A stretch of 64,000 nucleotides of DNA from positions 124,001 through 188,000 of the forward strand of contig JADBXR010000008.1 of NCBI GenBank assembly GCA_020403425.1, read 5' to 3'. A program made the position numbers and the translations under genes. Below, one piece after another: positions 1 to 13,540 of the stretch. Each line of letters opens with the position of its first letter. Position 1 is the stretch's first letter. Origin of the DNA: Chitinophagaceae bacterium (GTDB taxonomy: Bacteria; Bacteroidota; Bacteroidia; Chitinophagales; Chitinophagaceae). A model generated the notes under the pieces. It saw only the letters and a program-made list of their open reading frames with translations. It made no database searches and was not told the origin of the DNA.

Positions 1-258
1 GAAGTACGGTATATGGCATATTCCGAAAGGCCGACAGGCCCCGCATACCGGCCAGGGAAAACTGGCAGGTGTTCGAAACAGAATAACAATCGTTAGTATA
101 TCGAATTGATAATATTCAATGTTTGCGCTATTTATTTGAATATTATTAACCTATCTGGATAATTTATTCAAACAATCTTTCGTAAAGCCGATTTTTTTGC
201 ATAAATTCACACCACGATTGCCTGCCATTTTATTTCCTGAACATTAATTCGATTGTAC

Positions 259-3200
259 ATGCTTGTTTCCAGACAAAGCGAGGGACTTTACGACCCGTCG
301 TTTGAACATGATGCCTGTGGCATTGGTTTCGTGGCGAATATCAAAGGCAACAAATCGCACCAGCACATTGCAGATGCTTTGACCGTATTGGAAAATATGG
401 AGCATCGCGGTGCCTGTGGTTGCGAAGCGAATACCGGCGACGGAGCCGGCATCATGCTGCAGATCCCACACGAGTTCTTTTTTGATGAGTGTTTGAAACT
501 CGGCGTCCATTTGCCCGCATATGGCAAATACGGCGTGGGAGTCGTTTTCTTTCCCAAAGAGATCCGCCTGCGGGAAGAATGCAGGGACATCTTCAACCGT
601 TCCGCCGAAAAATTGGGACTTGAAGTATTGGCCTACCGAAAAGTACCGGTGAACAAAGATGGCATCGGCAACACCGCCCTTTCTGTGGAACCCTGCATGG
701 AACATGTGTTCATCGCCAGCCCCGACAGCATCACCAATCCCGATGAGTTCGAACGCAAACTGTTTGTGTTACGGAACTACGCATCTCACACCATCAGCAA
801 TACAGTGAAAAAAGATGAGATCGGCTTTTACCTCGCCTCTCTCTCCTATAAAACCATTATCTATAAAGGCCAGCTCACCAGCAACCAGGTTAGGAATTAT
901 TTCCCTGACCTGAGCGACAAACGCGTGGTATCGGCCTTTGGACTGGTACACTCCCGTTTTGCCACCAACACTTTCCCTTCCTGGAAACTGGCTCAGCCCT
1001 TCCGCTATATCGCCCACAACGGGGAGATCAATACACTTCAGGGAAACCTGAACTGGTTACGTACCAGCGAAAAAGGATTCACTTCCCCTTACTTCAGCAA
1101 GGAAGAGATGGAAATGCTGCTTCCGATCGTTACCGCGAACCAGTCAGACTCCGCCTGCCTCGATAACATGATCGAATTGCTGACACTGACAGGCAGGTCA
1201 TTGCCACATGTGATGATGATGCTGATACCAGAAGCCTGGGACGGCAACGACCAGATGGACCCGGTCAAAAAGGCCTTTTACGAATACCACGCTTGCATGA
1301 TGGAACCCTGGGACGGCCCGGCTTCCATCTCTTTCACCGATGGAAGGATCATCGGGGCCACGCTCGACAGGAACGGCTTACGTCCTTCGCGTTACGCCGT
1401 TACACACGACGACCGTGTGATCATGGCATCGGAGACCGGCGTACTCCCTATTGACCCGGCCCTGATCAAGGAAAAAGGAAGGTTACAGCCCGGTAAGATG
1501 TTCGTGGTGGACATGGAGCAGGGACGCATCATCAGCGATGAGGAACTGAAACAATCCATCTGCTCACAGAAACCCTATGCAGAATGGCTGAACAAATACA
1601 AGATCCGCCTGGAAGAATTACCCGAGCCACGCGTTATGTTCACCCACCTGGAGCATGAGCAGGTATTCAAATACCAGAAAGTTTTCGGCTATTCAACAGA
1701 AGATCTCGATACCATCATCGCCCCCATGGCCATCGATGGAAAAGAACCCATCGGCTCCATGGGAACCGATGTACCACTGGCGATCCTGAGCGAACAGCCT
1801 CAGCACCTGAGCAGTTATTTCAAACAACTATTTGCGCAGGTCACCAATCCGCCAATCGATCCCATCCGGGAAAGGATGGTAATGTCATTGGCAACTTTTG
1901 CCGGAAGCAATGGCAACCTGCTGGTAGAGGATCCGCTGGCCTGCCATAGCGTAGCACTGAAACATCCCGTTCTCAACAACCATGAACTGGAGAAGATCCG
2001 CAGCATCGATACCGGCATCTTCCAGGCAAAAACACTACAGACCTATTTCCGTGCCGATGGCAAAGCCGGATCACTGAAAAAAGGACTTGACCGTTTATGC
2101 CGTTATGCGGTAGATGCGGTAGAAGATGGTTTTGAAGTGATCATCCTCACCGATAGGGCCATCGATTCAGACCACGCCCCCATCCCTTCGCTGCTGGCCA
2201 CAGCAGCCGTGCACCACCACCTTATCCGCAAAGGATACCGTGGCCAGGTGGGCATCATCGTGGAAGCCGGCGATGTATGGGAAGTGCATCATTTCGCATG
2301 CCTGCTGGGTTTTGGCGCTACCGCCATCAATCCATACCTCGCACTATCTTCTATCAGGGACATGAAACTGAACAACAAACTTCAGACAGAACTGGATACG
2401 GAATACCTGAAGAAGAACTATGTGAAAGCGGTGAACGAAGGACTGCTGAAAGTGTTCTCCAAAATGGGGATCTCCACATTACAGTCATATCAGGGCGCAC
2501 AGATCTTCGAGATCATCGGCCTGAACAAGACCGTTGTGGACCAGTATTTCACAGGGGCTACTTCCCGCATACAAGGTATGGGGCTGGATGAGATCGCCAA
2601 GGAAGTACTGGCGAAACACTATTTCGCATTCAGCAAAAAGGACATACCGGTAGATCGCCTGCCCGTTGGCGGCATCTATCAATGGAAACGGAAAGGTGAG
2701 TTTCACCTGTTCAATCCGCAGACCATTCACCTGCTGCAGCAGGCAACCCGCACGAACGACTATGCGGCATTCAAGAAATATTCAAAACTGGTGAACGACC
2801 AGACGGAAAAAGCCTGTACGTTACGAAGTCAGTTCCAGTTCAAACGCAACCGGCCTTCTATTTCGATCGACGAGGTAGAACCCGCCGAAAATATATTCAA
2901 ACGTTTTGCCACAGGCGCCATGTCCTTCGGCTCCATTTCGTGGGAGGCCCACACTACCCTGGCCATCGCCATGAACCGGCTGGGTGGCAAAAGCAATACC
3001 GGCGAGGGTGGTGAAGACGAAGTTCGTTATGAACGTTTGCCCAACGGAGACTCCATGCGTTCCGCCATCAAACAGGTAGCTTCTGCCCGTTTCGGCGTGA
3101 CCAGCTACTATCTTACCGAAGCGGATGAACTGCAGATCAAAATGGCACAGGGAGCCAAACCGGGCGAAGGTGGCCAGTTACCCGGACATAAAGTGGACGA

Positions 3201-4791
3201 TTGGATCGGCAAGACCCGCCACTCCACACCAGGTGTAGGTCTGATCTCACCACCTCCCCACCACGATATCTATTCCATTGAAGATCTGGCGCAACTGATC
3301 TTCGATCTGAAGAATGCCAACCGTGCGGCGCGCATCAACGTGAAGCTCGTATCCAAAGCAGGCGTAGGAACCATTGCCGCAGGTGTGGCCAAAGCCAAGG
3401 CCGATGTGGTCCTGATCGCCGGTTTTGATGGCGGTACAGGCGCTTCTCCGATCAGTTCCATCAAACACGCAGGTCTTCCCTGGGAGTTAGGTCTCGCAGA
3501 GACGCACCAGACCCTCGTCAAAAATAAATTACGCAGCCGCGTAGTGGTACAGGCCGACGGACAGATGAAAACCGGTCGCGATATTGCGATAGCCGCCCTA
3601 CTGGGTGCAGAAGAATGGGGCGTTGCCACAGCAGCACTCATCGTGGAAGGTTGCATCATGATGCGCAAATGCCACATGAATACTTGTCCAGTAGGTGTTG
3701 CCACACAGGATCCTGAACTGCGCAAACGTTTTACGGGCAACCCGGACCATGTAGTGAACTTCTTCCATTTCATCACCGAAGAATTACGCGAGATCATGGC
3801 GGAACTGGGATTCAGGACCGTGAACGAAATGATCGGCCAGGTAGACTCTCTCGAGATGCGCGAGAACATCACCCATTGGAAATACAGCACACTGGATCTT
3901 TCCGGCGTTCTGTACAAGGAGCCCGGATCACTGTACACCGGTTTATACAAACAGGAAGAACAGGATCATGGAATTGCCGAAGTGCTCGACTGGCAATTAC
4001 TCAAAGCGGCCAAACCCGCACTGGAGAAAAAAGAACGCGTAACAGCAAGTTTCCCCATAAAAAATACCGACCGAACTGCCGGAACTATCCTGTCCAATGA
4101 GATCACCAAGATCTACAAGGCAGCGGGTTTGCCGGAAGACACCATACACTTCACTTTCACGGGAACAGCGGGACAAAGTTTTGGCGCTTTCAATACCAAA
4201 GGTATCACACTGGAACTCGAAGGTGATGCGAATGACTATTTCGGCAAGGGACTGAGCGGTGCCAAACTGATCGTATACCCTTCCAAACAGGCATCCTTCG
4301 TGCCAGAAGAGAACATCATCATCGGCAATGTGGCTTTCTATGGCGCAACTGCCGGAGAAGCGTATATCCGCGGTAAAGCAGGTGAACGTTTTGCAGTAAG
4401 GAACTCAGGTGCCAGTGTTGTGGTGGAAGGCGTGGGCGATCATGGTTGCGAATACATGACAGGCGGAACCGCCGTGATACTGGGCAGCACAGGCCGGAAC
4501 TTTGCAGCCGGCATGAGCGGCGGTATCGCGTATGTATATGATGTGAGCGGACAGTTTGACCAACTCTGCAACAAAGAGATGGTAGACCTTGATCCACTGG
4601 ACCAGGCCGATGCACAATTGCTGCAGGACATGATCACACACCATTTCGCCTACACGGCCAGCAGCGTTGCCAGGTTCGTGTTGGACGATTTTGAGAACCA
4701 GCTGAAGAATTTTGTGAAAGTATTCCCGAGGGACTACAAAAAAGCGCTGGCCGAGAAAAGCGAAAAATCGAAACTGACAACACAGAAATAA
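259..4791 (+). CDS. gltB: Glutamate synthase (NADPH) large subunit
   Basis: 1510-aa ORF; N-terminal class II amidotransferase region (EHDACGIGFVANIKG), central/FMN glutamate synthase motifs (GGKSNTGEGGED, GFDGGTGASP, CHMNTCPVGVATQ), C-terminal GXGXG-type domain. TTG in frame at 253, ATG at 259. Confidence 0.97.
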   Translation: MLVSRQSEGLYDPSFEHDACGIGFVANIKGNKSHQHIADALTVLENMEHRGACGCEANTGDGAGIMLQIPHEFFFDECLKLGVHLPAYGKYGVGVVFFPKEIRLREECRDIFNRSAEKLGLEVLAYRKVPVNKDGIGNTALSVEPCMEHVFIASPDSITNPDEFERKLFVLRNYASHTISNTVKKDEIGFYLASLSYKTIIYKGQLTSNQVRNYFPDLSDKRVVSAFGLVHSRFATNTFPSWKLAQPFRYIAHNGEINTLQGNLNWLRTSEKGFTSPYFSKEEMEMLLPIVTANQSDSACLDNMIELLTLTGRSLPHVMMMLIPEAWDGNDQMDPVKKAFYEYHACMMEPWDGPASISFTDGRIIGATLDRNGLRPSRYAVTHDDRVIMASETGVLPIDPALIKEKGRLQPGKMFVVDMEQGRIISDEELKQSICSQKPYAEWLNKYKIRLEELPEPRVMFTHLEHEQVFKYQKVFGYSTEDLDTIIAPMAIDGKEPIGSMGTDVPLAILSEQPQHLSSYFKQLFAQVTNPPIDPIRERMVMSLATFAGSNGNLLVEDPLACHSVALKHPVLNNHELEKIRSIDTGIFQAKTLQTYFRADGKAGSLKKGLDRLCRYAVDAVEDGFEVIILTDRAIDSDHAPIPSLLATAAVHHHLIRKGYRGQVGIIVEAGDVWEVHHFACLLGFGATAINPYLALSSIRDMKLNNKLQTELDTEYLKKNYVKAVNEGLLKVFSKMGISTLQSYQGAQIFEIIGLNKTVVDQYFTGATSRIQGMGLDEIAKEVLAKHYFAFSKKDIPVDRLPVGGIYQWKRKGEFHLFNPQTIHLLQQATRTNDYAAFKKYSKLVNDQTEKACTLRSQFQFKRNRPSISIDEVEPAENIFKRFATGAMSFGSISWEAHTTLAIAMNRLGGKSNTGEGGEDEVRYERLPNGDSMRSAIKQVASARFGVTSYYLTEADELQIKMAQGAKPGEGGQLPGHKVDDWIGKTRHSTPGVGLISPPPHHDIYSIEDLAQLIFDLKNANRAARINVKLVSKAGVGTIAAGVAKAKADVVLIAGFDGGTGASPISSIKHAGLPWELGLAETHQTLVKNKLRSRVVVQADGQMKTGRDIAIAALLGAEEWGVATAALIVEGCIMMRKCHMNTCPVGVATQDPELRKRFTGNPDHVVNFFHFITEELREIMAELGFRTVNEMIGQVDSLEMRENITHWKYSTLDLSGVLYKEPGSLYTGLYKQEEQDHGIAEVLDWQLLKAAKPALEKKERVTASFPIKNTDRTAGTILSNEITKIYKAAGLPEDTIHFTFTGTAGQSFGAFNTKGITLELEGDANDYFGKGLSGAKLIVYPSKQASFVPEENIIIGNVAFYGATAGEAYIRGKAGERFAVRNSGASVVVEGVGDHGCEYMTGGTAVILGSTGRNFAAGMSGGIAYVYDVSGQFDQLCNKEMVDLDPLDQADAQLLQDMITHHFAYTASSVARFVLDDFENQLKNFVKVFPRDYKKALAEKSEKSKLTTQK

Positions 4792-4857: not shown

Positions 4858-6330
4858 ATGGGCAAACCAACAGGATTTATAGAATTTACCAGGGAGCTGC
4901 CCGGCAAGCGTTCCCCTAAGGAGCGTGTGAACGATTATCGAGAATTCGTAGAAAGACTGCCGGAAGAAAAACTCAACCAGCAGTCCGCGCGTTGCATGAA
5001 TTGCGGCGTACCTTTCTGCCATAATGGATGTCCACTGGGTAATATCATCCCGGAATTCAACGACGCCGTTTATCGTAAGAACTGGGCCGAAGCATATGAT
5101 ATACTGAGCGCCACCAACAATTTCCCCGAGTTCACCGGCAGGATCTGCCCTGCCCCATGCGAAAGCGCCTGTGTGCTGGGCATCAATCAACCACCCGTGA
5201 CCATTGAAGAGATCGAGAAACATATTATCGAGATCGCATTCGAGAAAGGATTCGTGACACCACGGAAGCCCAATATCAGAACAGGTAAAAAAATAGCCAT
5301 AGTAGGCTCCGGTCCTGCCGGACTTGCTGCGGCAGCACAACTGAACTATGCCGGACACAGCGTAACGGTTTTTGAAAGAGACGATGCACCCGGCGGACTA
5401 CTGCGTTACGGTATCCCCGACTTCAAACTCGAAAAATGGGTGATCGACAGAAGGATCTCCCTGATGGAAGAGGAAGGGGTTACATTCCGCTGCAACGCCA
5501 ATGTAGGTGGCAATGTAAGCATCAATGACCTATTACGCGAATACCAGGCGGTCGTATTGGCCGGAGGCTCTACCATTCCGCGCAACCTCGACATCCCCGG
5601 AAGGGAATTGAAGGGGGTTCATTTTGCGATGGAGTTCCTGAAACAACAGAACAAACGTGTCAGCAACCGCGAGGTAGGCACAGAAGACATACTGGCCAAA
5701 GGAAAGAATGTGGTTGTGATCGGTGGCGGCGATACCGGAAGCGACTGTGTAGGCACTTCCAACCGGCAGGGAGCAGCATCGGTTACCCAGTTCGAACTGT
5801 TACCCAAACCTCCGGAAAACCGAACGGCAGCTATGCCATGGCCCACTTATCCGATGGTCCTGAAGACCACATCTTCTCATGAAGAGGGCGCCAACAGACA
5901 CTGGTCCATTGCTACCAAAGCCTTCATCGGCGATGATAAGGGGCATCTGAAAGCCCTGAAAGTGGTGGATCTTGTCTGGAAAACCCCCGAAGCGGGCGGA
6001 CCGGCCCGTTTTGAAGAAGTAGCAGGCAGCGAACGGGAAATGCCCTGCGAACTGGCATTACTGGCCATGGGATTCGTGCATCCGCAGCAGGAAGGATTAC
6101 TGAAACAACTGGACGTGGATCTGGACGAAAGAGGTAATGTAAAAGCGACCGAACAGGATTTCCAGACCAATATCCAGAAGATCTTCACGGCCGGGGATAT
6201 GCGCCGCGGACAATCCCTGGTAGTATGGGCAATCAGTGAAGGCAGGGAATGCGCACGCAAGGTCGATGAGTATCTGATGGGAGGATCCGTGCTGGAATCA
6301 AAAGATAAAAGCTATCTAGTAAGTATATAA
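4858..6330 (+). CDS. gltD: Glutamate synthase small subunit
   Basis: 490 aa; N-terminal Fe-S cysteines (CMNCGVPFCHNGCPLGN), dinucleotide-binding motifs GSGPAGLAAA and GGGDTGSDC; directly downstream of gltB. Confidence 0.97.
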   Translation: MGKPTGFIEFTRELPGKRSPKERVNDYREFVERLPEEKLNQQSARCMNCGVPFCHNGCPLGNIIPEFNDAVYRKNWAEAYDILSATNNFPEFTGRICPAPCESACVLGINQPPVTIEEIEKHIIEIAFEKGFVTPRKPNIRTGKKIAIVGSGPAGLAAAAQLNYAGHSVTVFERDDAPGGLLRYGIPDFKLEKWVIDRRISLMEEEGVTFRCNANVGGNVSINDLLREYQAVVLAGGSTIPRNLDIPGRELKGVHFAMEFLKQQNKRVSNREVGTEDILAKGKNVVVIGGGDTGSDCVGTSNRQGAASVTQFELLPKPPENRTAAMPWPTYPMVLKTTSSHEEGANRHWSIATKAFIGDDKGHLKALKVVDLVWKTPEAGGPARFEEVAGSEREMPCELALLAMGFVHPQQEGLLKQLDVDLDERGNVKATEQDFQTNIQKIFTAGDMRRGQSLVVWAISEGRECARKVDEYLMGGSVLESKDKSYLVSI

Positions 6331-6545: not shown

Positions 6546-7892
6546 ATGTCAAAATCCACCGTCAAGCAATTCGCCCCTTTTATCTTATTATTACTTGTAG
6601 CAGTAGCAGCCCTGTTTGCCCCATCCCTTCCCAACTTCGATGACGGCGGTAAATACAACGCGGCCGACATAGCCTGGATCATTGTGGCCACCGCCCTGGT
6701 ATTCCTGATGACACCCGGCCTGGCCTTTTTCTATGGCGGCATGGTTCACCGCAAGAATGTGATCTCTACCATGATCAAAAGCGTGGTGGCAGCCGGAGTA
6801 GTGAGCATCCTCTGGGTATTTGTAGGATACAGCCTCTGCTTTGGGGATACCATCGGCGGTTTTATCGGGAACCCTTCCTCGCACCTGTTCTTCAGGGGCG
6901 TTAATTCAGGTGCCCCCTGGAGCCTGGCACCCAGCATTCCGCTGTCGCTGTTTGCCCTGTTCCAACTGATGTTCGCCATCATCACACCTGGACTGGTGGT
7001 AGGTGCCGTAGCAGAACGGATACGTTTTACGGCCTATATCCTCTTCATTGCCCTGTTCAGTTTACTGGTATACGCACCGATTGCGCACTGGACATGGCAT
7101 CCGGAAGGCTTCCTGTTCAAAATGGGCGCACTCGATTTTGCCGGAGGCACGGTGGTCCATATCTCTGCAGGCTGTGCCGCTTTGGCCGGCGCACTGGTAT
7201 TGAAGCGCCGTAAATCACATATTGAACAACAGGAGATCCCGCCAGCCAATATCCCCTATGTACTGATCGGGACAGGTCTACTATGGTTCGGCTGGTTTGG
7301 GTTTAACGCCGGTTCCGCACTTGGTGCCAACGCTCTTTCCGTATCTGCTTTCGGAACCACCAACACTGCAGCTGCGGCCGCCGGCCTGTCTTGGATGTTC
7401 TTTGATGTGATCCGAGGTAAAAAACCTTCCGTACTCGGTTTCTGCATAGGGGCAGTGGTAGGACTTGTGGCCATTACACCTGCCGCAGGTTTTGTGGCCA
7501 TTCCGCAAAGTATCTTTATCGGCTTTGTAGCTGCCATTGTATCCAACCTGGCCGTGTATTACAAAAGTAAATCCACACTGGATGACACACTGGATGTTTT
7601 CCCCTGTCACGGATTAGGCGGTATGGTAGGTATGTTGATGACCGGCATTTTCGCTACTAAATCAGTGAATACCGCAGGTGCCGATGGACTGTTTTACGGG
7701 AACGCCAGCTTCTTCTTTACCCAGGTGAAGGCATTGGGTATCGTAGTGGGATATAGTTTTGTCGTGTCTTTTGCGATCTTCAAGTTCATCGATCTGATCC
7801 TACCCTTACGCGTAAGTGAAGAAGAAGAGATTCAGGGCCTGGATGCCACACAACACAACGAGAAATACGGACGGACCCCTCAACTGGCCTGA
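6546..7892 (+). CDS. amt: Ammonium transporter (Amt family)
   Basis: 448 aa, polytopic; Amt signatures FFYGGMVHRKNV, DFAGGTVVHISAG, CHGLGGMVGML. Confidence 0.95.
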   Translation: MSKSTVKQFAPFILLLLVAVAALFAPSLPNFDDGGKYNAADIAWIIVATALVFLMTPGLAFFYGGMVHRKNVISTMIKSVVAAGVVSILWVFVGYSLCFGDTIGGFIGNPSSHLFFRGVNSGAPWSLAPSIPLSLFALFQLMFAIITPGLVVGAVAERIRFTAYILFIALFSLLVYAPIAHWTWHPEGFLFKMGALDFAGGTVVHISAGCAALAGALVLKRRKSHIEQQEIPPANIPYVLIGTGLLWFGWFGFNAGSALGANALSVSAFGTTNTAAAAAGLSWMFFDVIRGKKPSVLGFCIGAVVGLVAITPAAGFVAIPQSIFIGFVAAIVSNLAVYYKSKSTLDDTLDVFPCHGLGGMVGMLMTGIFATKSVNTAGADGLFYGNASFFFTQVKALGIVVGYSFVVSFAIFKFIDLILPLRVSEEEEIQGLDATQHNEKYGRTPQLA

Positions 7893-7948
7893 ACAGCCGG
7901 AAAGGTCACTGCATAATGAGCAAGGTATCCTGGTATCAAAATTTCTGT

Positions 7949-7994
7949 TGTACAGCTAACTAACGGCCTCTGACCAGGCATAGCCCCAGGTACA
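7949..7994 (+). promoter_or_regulatory. Structured RNA-like motif, copy 1 of a tandem pair (amt-porin intergenic region)
   Basis: TGTAC(7949-7953)/GTACA(7990-7994), GCTA(7955-7958)/TAGC(7981-7984), GCCT(7966-7969)-CTGACC-AGGC(7976-7979); shares the 12-mer CCTCTGACCAGG with copy 2. Confidence 0.7.
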
Positions 7995-8009
7995 CTCTCC
8001 CAAAAAATA

Positions 8010-8057
8010 AGGTACAGCCATATCATAAACCTCTGACCAGGTTTACAGGCTGTACCT
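8010..8057 (+). promoter_or_regulatory. Structured RNA-like motif, copy 2 of a tandem pair (5' UTR of porin gene)
   Basis: Perfect 10-bp outer stem AGGTACAGCC/GGCTGTACCT (8010-8019/8048-8057), perfect 7-bp inner stem TAAACCT/AGGTTTA (8026-8032/8039-8045), loop CTGACC. Confidence 0.8.
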
Positions 8058-8083
8058 ATTTGTTAATCATAAAACCCATTGCA

Positions 8084-9115
8084 ATGTTAAAGAAAATTTC
8101 AGCAGTATGCCTGGCATTTTTCGGGCTCGGGTCAGCACATGCACAAACGGATTCCGCTAAAAAAGCTACCACCAATTTTACAGGATCGGTTGACGCTTAT
8201 TATCGCTTCAACTTCAACGATCCACCCACAGGTACCAACAACTATACCAGTTTCACCAATTCCAATAATTCATTCGAACTGGGCATGGCTTCTGTGCGGG
8301 TAGAGCATAACGTTGGAAAAGTTTCCGCAACGGCTGATATTGGTTTCGGCCGCAGGGCTCAGGAATTCTCTTACAACGATGTGGGCACCACGCTTACCGC
8401 CGTTAAACAGGCCTATGTAAGTTATACAGCATCTGACAAGGTAAAACTGACACTGGGCAAATGGGCCACCCATGTTGGCTACGAATTACTGGATGCTTAC
8501 GCAAACAGAAATTACAGCATGTCTTACGGGTTCTCTTACGGTCCTTTCTTTCACACCGGTATCAAAGCCGATATTGCTCTCGGCGGAAAATCCGCGCTGA
8601 TGCTGGGTGTAGCCAATCCCACCGATTATGTGAGCGCACCCAGCAGCGTAAAAGTGATCATCGCCCAATTCAGCACGGGCTCTGCCAACGATAAACTGAA
8701 AGCCTACCTCAACTTCCAGGGAGGTACGGGCCTGACACAATTCAATCTGGTAGTGACAGGTGTCTTATCCGACAAATGGAATATTGCGTACGACGGCAGC
8801 CTGCAATCGACCAAACAGGGAACAGAGAACAGCAGCTGGAAAAGTCACGCCCTGTACCTGAACTACGACCCTCTCAAGAACTTCGGTCTCACCTTGCGCG
8901 GCGATTATTTCGACGACCGCAAACTGGCACCGTTACTGGGCGGTGCCCGCAAAGTATTTGCCACCACCCTCTCAGGCAATATCCGTATCGATAACATTAC
9001 CATCATACCCGAACTGAGGCTCGACAATGCCAATGGTGACGCTTTTACGAAGAGTAATGGAACAGCCGGCAAGAGTACCTCAGGTTTTATCCTTGCCGCT
9101 GTATACAGGTTCTGA
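8084..9115 (+). CDS. Putative outer membrane beta-barrel porin
   Basis: Signal peptide MLKKISAVCLAFFGLGSAHAQ, alternating beta-strand pattern, C-terminal aromatic residue (VYRF). The ORF track extends to TTG 8060, but ATG 8084 starts the signal peptide. Confidence 0.8.
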   Translation: MLKKISAVCLAFFGLGSAHAQTDSAKKATTNFTGSVDAYYRFNFNDPPTGTNNYTSFTNSNNSFELGMASVRVEHNVGKVSATADIGFGRRAQEFSYNDVGTTLTAVKQAYVSYTASDKVKLTLGKWATHVGYELLDAYANRNYSMSYGFSYGPFFHTGIKADIALGGKSALMLGVANPTDYVSAPSSVKVIIAQFSTGSANDKLKAYLNFQGGTGLTQFNLVVTGVLSDKWNIAYDGSLQSTKQGTENSSWKSHALYLNYDPLKNFGLTLRGDYFDDRKLAPLLGGARKVFATTLSGNIRIDNITIIPELRLDNANGDAFTKSNGTAGKSTSGFILAAVYRF

Positions 9116-13508: not shown

Positions 13509-13540
13509 AAAGAGGACCATCAGCAGATGGTCCTCTTTTT
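13509..13540. terminator. Hairpin terminator between convergent murB and ompA-like gene
   Basis: AAAGAGGACCATC-AGCA-GATGGTCCTCTTT then TT; A/T runs on both sides suggest bidirectional use. Confidence 0.88.

Follow-up and report, generated by a model that had tools for sequence, protein, structure and literature searches.

Two hairpins with the same hexaloop lie in the gap between an ammonium transporter gene (amt) and an outer-membrane porin gene in a member of the Chitinophagaceae, and the questions are whether they form a genuine RNA element, which of the two genes the element serves and by what means it might act. The window considered here is the whole 64-kb stretch of DNA that was analysed; it belongs to a 3.72 Mb genome whose closest relatives at the amt-porin locus are Sediminibacterium-type Chitinophagaceae. 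The gene order is gltB (253–4791), gltD (4858–6330), amt and BBP2-family porin, with the features of the amt-porin region collected in Table 1. A first-pass annotation of the window described the hairpins as tandem structured motifs of common architecture and suggested that they sense nitrogen status.

Table 1. Genes and RNA features of the amt-porin region (window coordinates).
Feature	Position	Strand	Description
amt, ammonium transporter	6546–7892	+	PF00909, TIGR00836
Copy 1, distal hairpin	7949–7994	+	inner stem GCCT/AGGC, hexaloop CTGACC at 7970–7975
Copy 1, further stems	7949–7994	+	possible middle stem GCTA/TAGC; weak outer stem TGTAC/GTACA
A-rich run directly 5' of copy 2	8000–8009	+	family mean, 7.2 of 9 nt are A
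Copy 2, conserved porin-leader hairpin	8010–8057	+	outer stem AGGTACAGCC/GGCTGTACCT; model matches and covariation
Copy 2, interior	8010–8057	+	5' internal loop; inner stem with hexaloop CTGACC at 8033–8038
Hairpin-to-ATG spacer	8058–8083	+	length conserved, sequence partly so; U-rich then A-rich
BBP2-family outer-membrane porin	8084–9115	+	PF07642; ATG at 8084

Two Hairpins in One Gap

The 12-mer CCTCTGACCAGG shared by the two copies is present at 7967–7978 and 8030–8041, with a spacing of 63 nt, and occurs nowhere else in the 3.72 Mb genome, both occurrences being confined to the amt-porin gap. Copy 2 has the perfect 10-bp outer stem originally described (8010–8019 with 8048–8057), ends 26 nt 5' of the porin ATG (8084) and folds with an energy of -22.5 kcal/mol (z = -5.8 against shuffled sequences). 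The proposed structure is well supported for copy 2 and for the inner hairpin of copy 1 with its CUGACC loop, but not for copy 1 in its entirety, the fold of which is no better than that of its own shuffles (z = 0.06); the GTAC outer stem of copy 1, listed as a shared feature, is not retained as sequence in relatives. A search with Rfam 15 likewise recognised none of its families, giving zero matches at the curated gathering score over the 64 kb and zero at a permissive E of up to 10 over positions 7700–8300. Elsewhere in the window, a strong bidirectional terminator-like hairpin (AAAGAGGACCATC...GATGGTCCTCTTT) is found at 13509–13538.

A Covarying Element of the Chitinophagaceae

Copy 2 is one instance of a conserved RNA element that was recovered in at least 17 Chitinophagaceae genera. 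The same hairpin is present directly 5' of the porin in same-genus relatives, and the covariance-model search that the first-pass annotation had proposed recovered homologous, covarying elements in relatives' genomes: with a model of 13 copies about 70 of the 147 same-genus genomes each yielded a single strong match, and a model of 43 copies matched 40 of 399 genomes and 19 of 165 genera of the order, 17 of these 19 genera belonging to the Chitinophagaceae. The arrangement amt, element, porin was seen at all 39 fetched loci and at 9 of 10 weaker ones (48/49). No element match was obtained outside the Chitinophagaceae in a 399-genome sample of the phylum. Two matches in other families of the order were discarded, one with neither amt nor porin at the locus (L194) and one with an amt 82% identical to that of the window, which suggests transfer or a stray contig (L193).

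Base pairing is maintained while the sequence changes. Among 40 distinct sequences 96.6% of the pair cells are paired and both sides have changed in 8 of 15 pairs; in a wider set of 37 sequences, aligned without regard to structure, both sides have changed in 11 of 15 pairs, with a score of 0.338 as compared with 0.144 after shuffling and at most 0.160 in a slid-partner control. All 41 elements fold with z below -2. The paired sequence GGUAC/GUACC is the most constant part of the element across the family, and the internal loop is variable. Both the homologue search and pair covariation give good support to a cis-acting RNA element with covarying structure at this locus. A dispersed REP-type repeat unrelated to gene function, which had been considered as a competing origin of the motif, is excluded by the presence of one element per genome at one locus only.

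Some leaders depart from this pattern. Two Hydrotalea-type porin leaders (L098 and L082) contain only a small hairpin, AGTAC...GTACT, followed by a similar spacer, and possibly represent a reduced element. Long inverted repeats that differ from locus to locus and resemble small mobile insertions are located between amt and the element at L035, L044, L045, and L047.

The Element Accompanies the Porin

The element belongs to the porin and not to amt, as its distance to the porin ATG is steady (19–32 nt, median 27), the gap that separates it from the amt stop codon is variable (5–313 nt), and in Flavisolibacter (L094, L110), where the order is reversed to porin-amt, it is kept 5' of the porin. 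The outer stem covaries in this genus, GGTATTGC/GCAATACC replacing GGTACAGC/GCTGTACC. The element was found at this one gene only and never 5' of gltB, amt or glnA. It is absent from all 28 porin homologues that lack an amt immediately upstream, in which any downstream Amt is distant (about 28–33% identical) save in one case, L077. Seven loci have an amt upstream yet no element (L027, L029, L030, L065, L100, L102, and L109), a tally in which L095 and L134 were corrected by hand.

The porin is probably read from the amt transcript. The Bacteroidota promoter motif TAnnTTTG occurs in 1 of 60 amt-porin gaps against 2.3 expected, so that a separate porin promoter in the gap finds no backing above chance, and the gap of only 5–10 nt at some loci leaves no room for one. 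Such a transcript could be cut upstream of the hairpin, which would then shield the 5' end of the porin message and raise porin above Amt with no sensing involved. This intercistronic processing or stabilising role agrees with the promoter-like -7 motif not exceeding chance in the gaps, with a hairpin whose 3' end lies 19–32 nt from the ATG, at the edge of the ribosome footprint or beyond it, and with a start region that is mostly unpaired (the outer stem has P > 0.5 in 41/41 elements). We nevertheless regard it as improbable, given that the loop sequence is retained as the stems change and that Flavisolibacter, with its porin first in order, has no need of an intercistronic cut.

Alternatively, the hairpin may be a leaky or conditional intrinsic terminator that sets the ratio of the two transcripts and whose loop may host an antiterminator. 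The first-pass annotation had dismissed simple terminators because no U-tract followed either copy, a statement too strong for copy 2, whose outer stem precedes the U-rich UAUUUGUU (counted from 8057). Across the family the hairpin is preceded by 7.2 A and followed by 5.0 U in 9 nt on average, compared with 3.3 U at an equivalent distance 5' of other genes; clear U-tracts are present in Flavisolibacter (UUUCUUUUUU) and at L186 (UUUUUU), and the window's own terminators show similar A/U flanks. The stable fold of all 41 elements is likewise what a terminator requires. The 9 nt after the hairpin contain six or more U in 18 of the 41 non-redundant elements but four or fewer in 15, a pattern scan leaves the site unflagged, and a plain terminator requires neither an invariant loop nor an invariant GGUAC stem. 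We consider termination rather unlikely, the A-rich and U-rich runs and the true U-tracts of a few relatives being the reason why partial termination retains a part of the probability.

A Loop Conserved on Exchangeable Stems

In 17 of the 36 non-redundant gaps between amt and porin CTGACC is the loop on a stem with a minimum of 4 bp, the runner-up hexamer being so placed in 2. Hairpins like copy 1 occur in many Sediminibacterium gaps with the loop CTGACC on unrelated stems (e.g., ACGGTAAATAAACTT/AAGTTTATTTACCGT, GCCGG/CCGGC, GAGT/ACTC, and GACCGGATGAAC/GTTCATCCGGTT) and with varying closing pairs (U-A, G-C, U-G), and the stems of CTGACC hairpins covary strongly (0.649 vs. 0.229). Since CUGACC is kept on unrelated stems, the loop rather than the stem is probably the recognised part.

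Distal and proximal loops match within a genome, being CTGACC in both positions in Sediminibacterium and in another genus (L139), and in Longitalea the extra copies bear that genus's own loop, CTGACAC, which is also the proximal one. Clades differ in their proximal loop (CUGACC, CUGACAC, UUGACG, CUGAGAA, CUCGCAA, and CGCCAA), which is stable inside each of them. Copy 1 is clade-specific, and the tandem arrangement is confined to part of the family. The gap at L076 contains two extra distal hairpins with CTGACAC besides the proximal one, so that the loop occurs three times in this leader.

The loop has no evident counterpart nearby. No conserved GGTCAG partner was found in the same mRNA, the one GGUCAG of the window (at +46 in the porin) not being conserved, and a role of the loop in local pairing was rejected. 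With a model of this hairpin, the other CUGACC hairpins of the window genome reached chance-level scores only and those inspected lie inside open reading frames, so that a wider regulon of such hairpins was rejected. Distal hairpins also carry a short motif, CTAACGA(A/T), in their 5' internal loop (7959–7965 in the window, ACTAACGG; L004, L033, L036–L038, and L040), and it is present outside a hairpin in the gaps of L059 and L042; 10 of 60 gaps contain TAACGA, where shuffling predicts 3.2.

Nitrogen Context and PII

The absence of a PII gene (PF00543), initially seen in the window, extends to the whole genome, which is rated 100% complete. PII is present in 100 of 399 genomes sampled from the order and is common in its other families, but only 5 of these genomes belong to the Chitinophagaceae. 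At L130 (G280:C17:59783-62837) amt, element, porin and PII form one apparent operon with PII directly after the porin, an arrangement that is possibly ancestral. This pattern fits a nitrogen-uptake operon that formerly included PII but is no demonstration of nitrogen sensing by the RNA. Nor does it separately link the element to the loss of PII, since PII is lacking in nearly the whole family, including genomes that gave no element.

Control of the porin by a small riboswitch with a nitrogen metabolite (glutamine, 2-oxoglutarate or ammonium) as its ligand would suit the amt linkage, the adjoining gltBD of the window, the PII gene at L130 and the scarcity of PII in the window genome and its family. 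A conserved, covarying structure in a gene leader is indeed present. A constant unpaired core is not: the apical loop changes clade by clade, which is not the behaviour of a metabolite-binding core, the internal loop varies as well, and too little unpaired sequence is constant across the family. In addition, the element precedes a single gene, never gltB, amt or glnA, and has zero Rfam matches. We judge a riboswitch quite improbable. Neither the initially suggested sensing of nitrogen status nor a tandem cooperative riboswitch gained direct support; only part of the family has tandem copies, and the loop varies among clades.

A Putative Trans-Acting Partner

The retention of a loop while its stems change freely is what a loop read in trans would display, and its presence on exchangeable stems, repetition within a leader and change by clade point to a partner acting in trans. 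Our preferred reading, held tentatively and at somewhat short of an even chance, is that copy 2 is a cis-acting porin-leader hairpin whose loop is read by such a factor, which sets porin output relative to Amt. The hairpin would be carried on the amt-porin mRNA (porin-amt in Flavisolibacter), and a putative RNA-binding protein or base-pairing small RNA would read the apical loop in response to a presumed signal and thereby fix the amount of porin relative to Amt; in Sediminibacterium relatives copy 1 would repeat the loop on a different stem and offer the factor two sites. The step under control may be read-through, mRNA stability or translation. The ribosome site lies beyond the end of the hairpin and is mostly accessible, which makes plain occlusion unlikely, and read-through or mRNA stability appear to be better candidates.

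Several points count against a loop-reading factor. A global RNA-binding protein would have this one target, as CUGACC hairpins elsewhere are at chance level; the GGUAC/GUACC pairing, most constant across the family, is not accounted for by reading of the loop; and common descent explains part of the match between distal and proximal loops within a clade. The window genome encodes one RRM protein. A broader scenario, which we hold to be very doubtful, is that the Chitinophagaceae, a family in which PII is largely lost, shifted part of their control over ammonium uptake to this loop-read hairpin and a dedicated trans factor, which would tie porin output to nitrogen status while the loop and its partner co-evolved in each clade.

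Comparison with Known Systems

No earlier report of the element was found in the searchable literature, a scope without subscription papers and supplementary motif lists. It looks like an undescribed cis-regulatory RNA of a known general kind that would control the amt-linked porin. Post-transcriptional control in this phylum is poorly understood, and the element adds a family-wide, single-locus example at a nitrogen-uptake operon of bacteria that mostly lack PII. A loop kept on interchangeable stems can readily serve as bait for the putative factor, and the element is open to experiment in species of Sediminibacterium and Flavisolibacter that are in culture.

In the guanidine-II (mini-ykkC) riboswitch two hairpins in tandem present one short loop, ACGR, on different stems, and the loops can pair with each other. 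The two hairpins of the amt-porin gap also share a short loop on different stems, but CUGACC lacks a self-complementary core, most instances of the element consist of one hairpin and Rfam gave zero matches. Leader hairpins bound by proteins such as CsrA/RsmA or the BglG-type antiterminators (at RAT sites, which overlap a terminator) present a short recognised sequence with repeated sites per leader. The amt-porin leader likewise carries a short loop sequence on a hairpin, repeated in one leader; it differs in the lack of a GGA core, in the restriction to one locus in the genome and in a factor that is putative. The 5' stabilising stem-loop of the ompA mRNA of Escherichia coli resembles the amt-porin element in that it, too, stands in the leader of an mRNA for an outer-membrane protein, whereas the element described here is conserved in sequence over a family, including its loop within clades, and is usually intercistronic. 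The glnA (RF01739) and Downstream-peptide (RF01704) motifs of cyanobacteria act in cis at nitrogen genes, those for ammonium transporters among them, and glnA RNAs also occur in tandem (PMC2864571). The amt-porin element resembles them as a cis-acting RNA at nitrogen genes and is set apart by the lack of an Rfam match, its single hairpin, its variable core, its occurrence in another phylum and its position before a porin.
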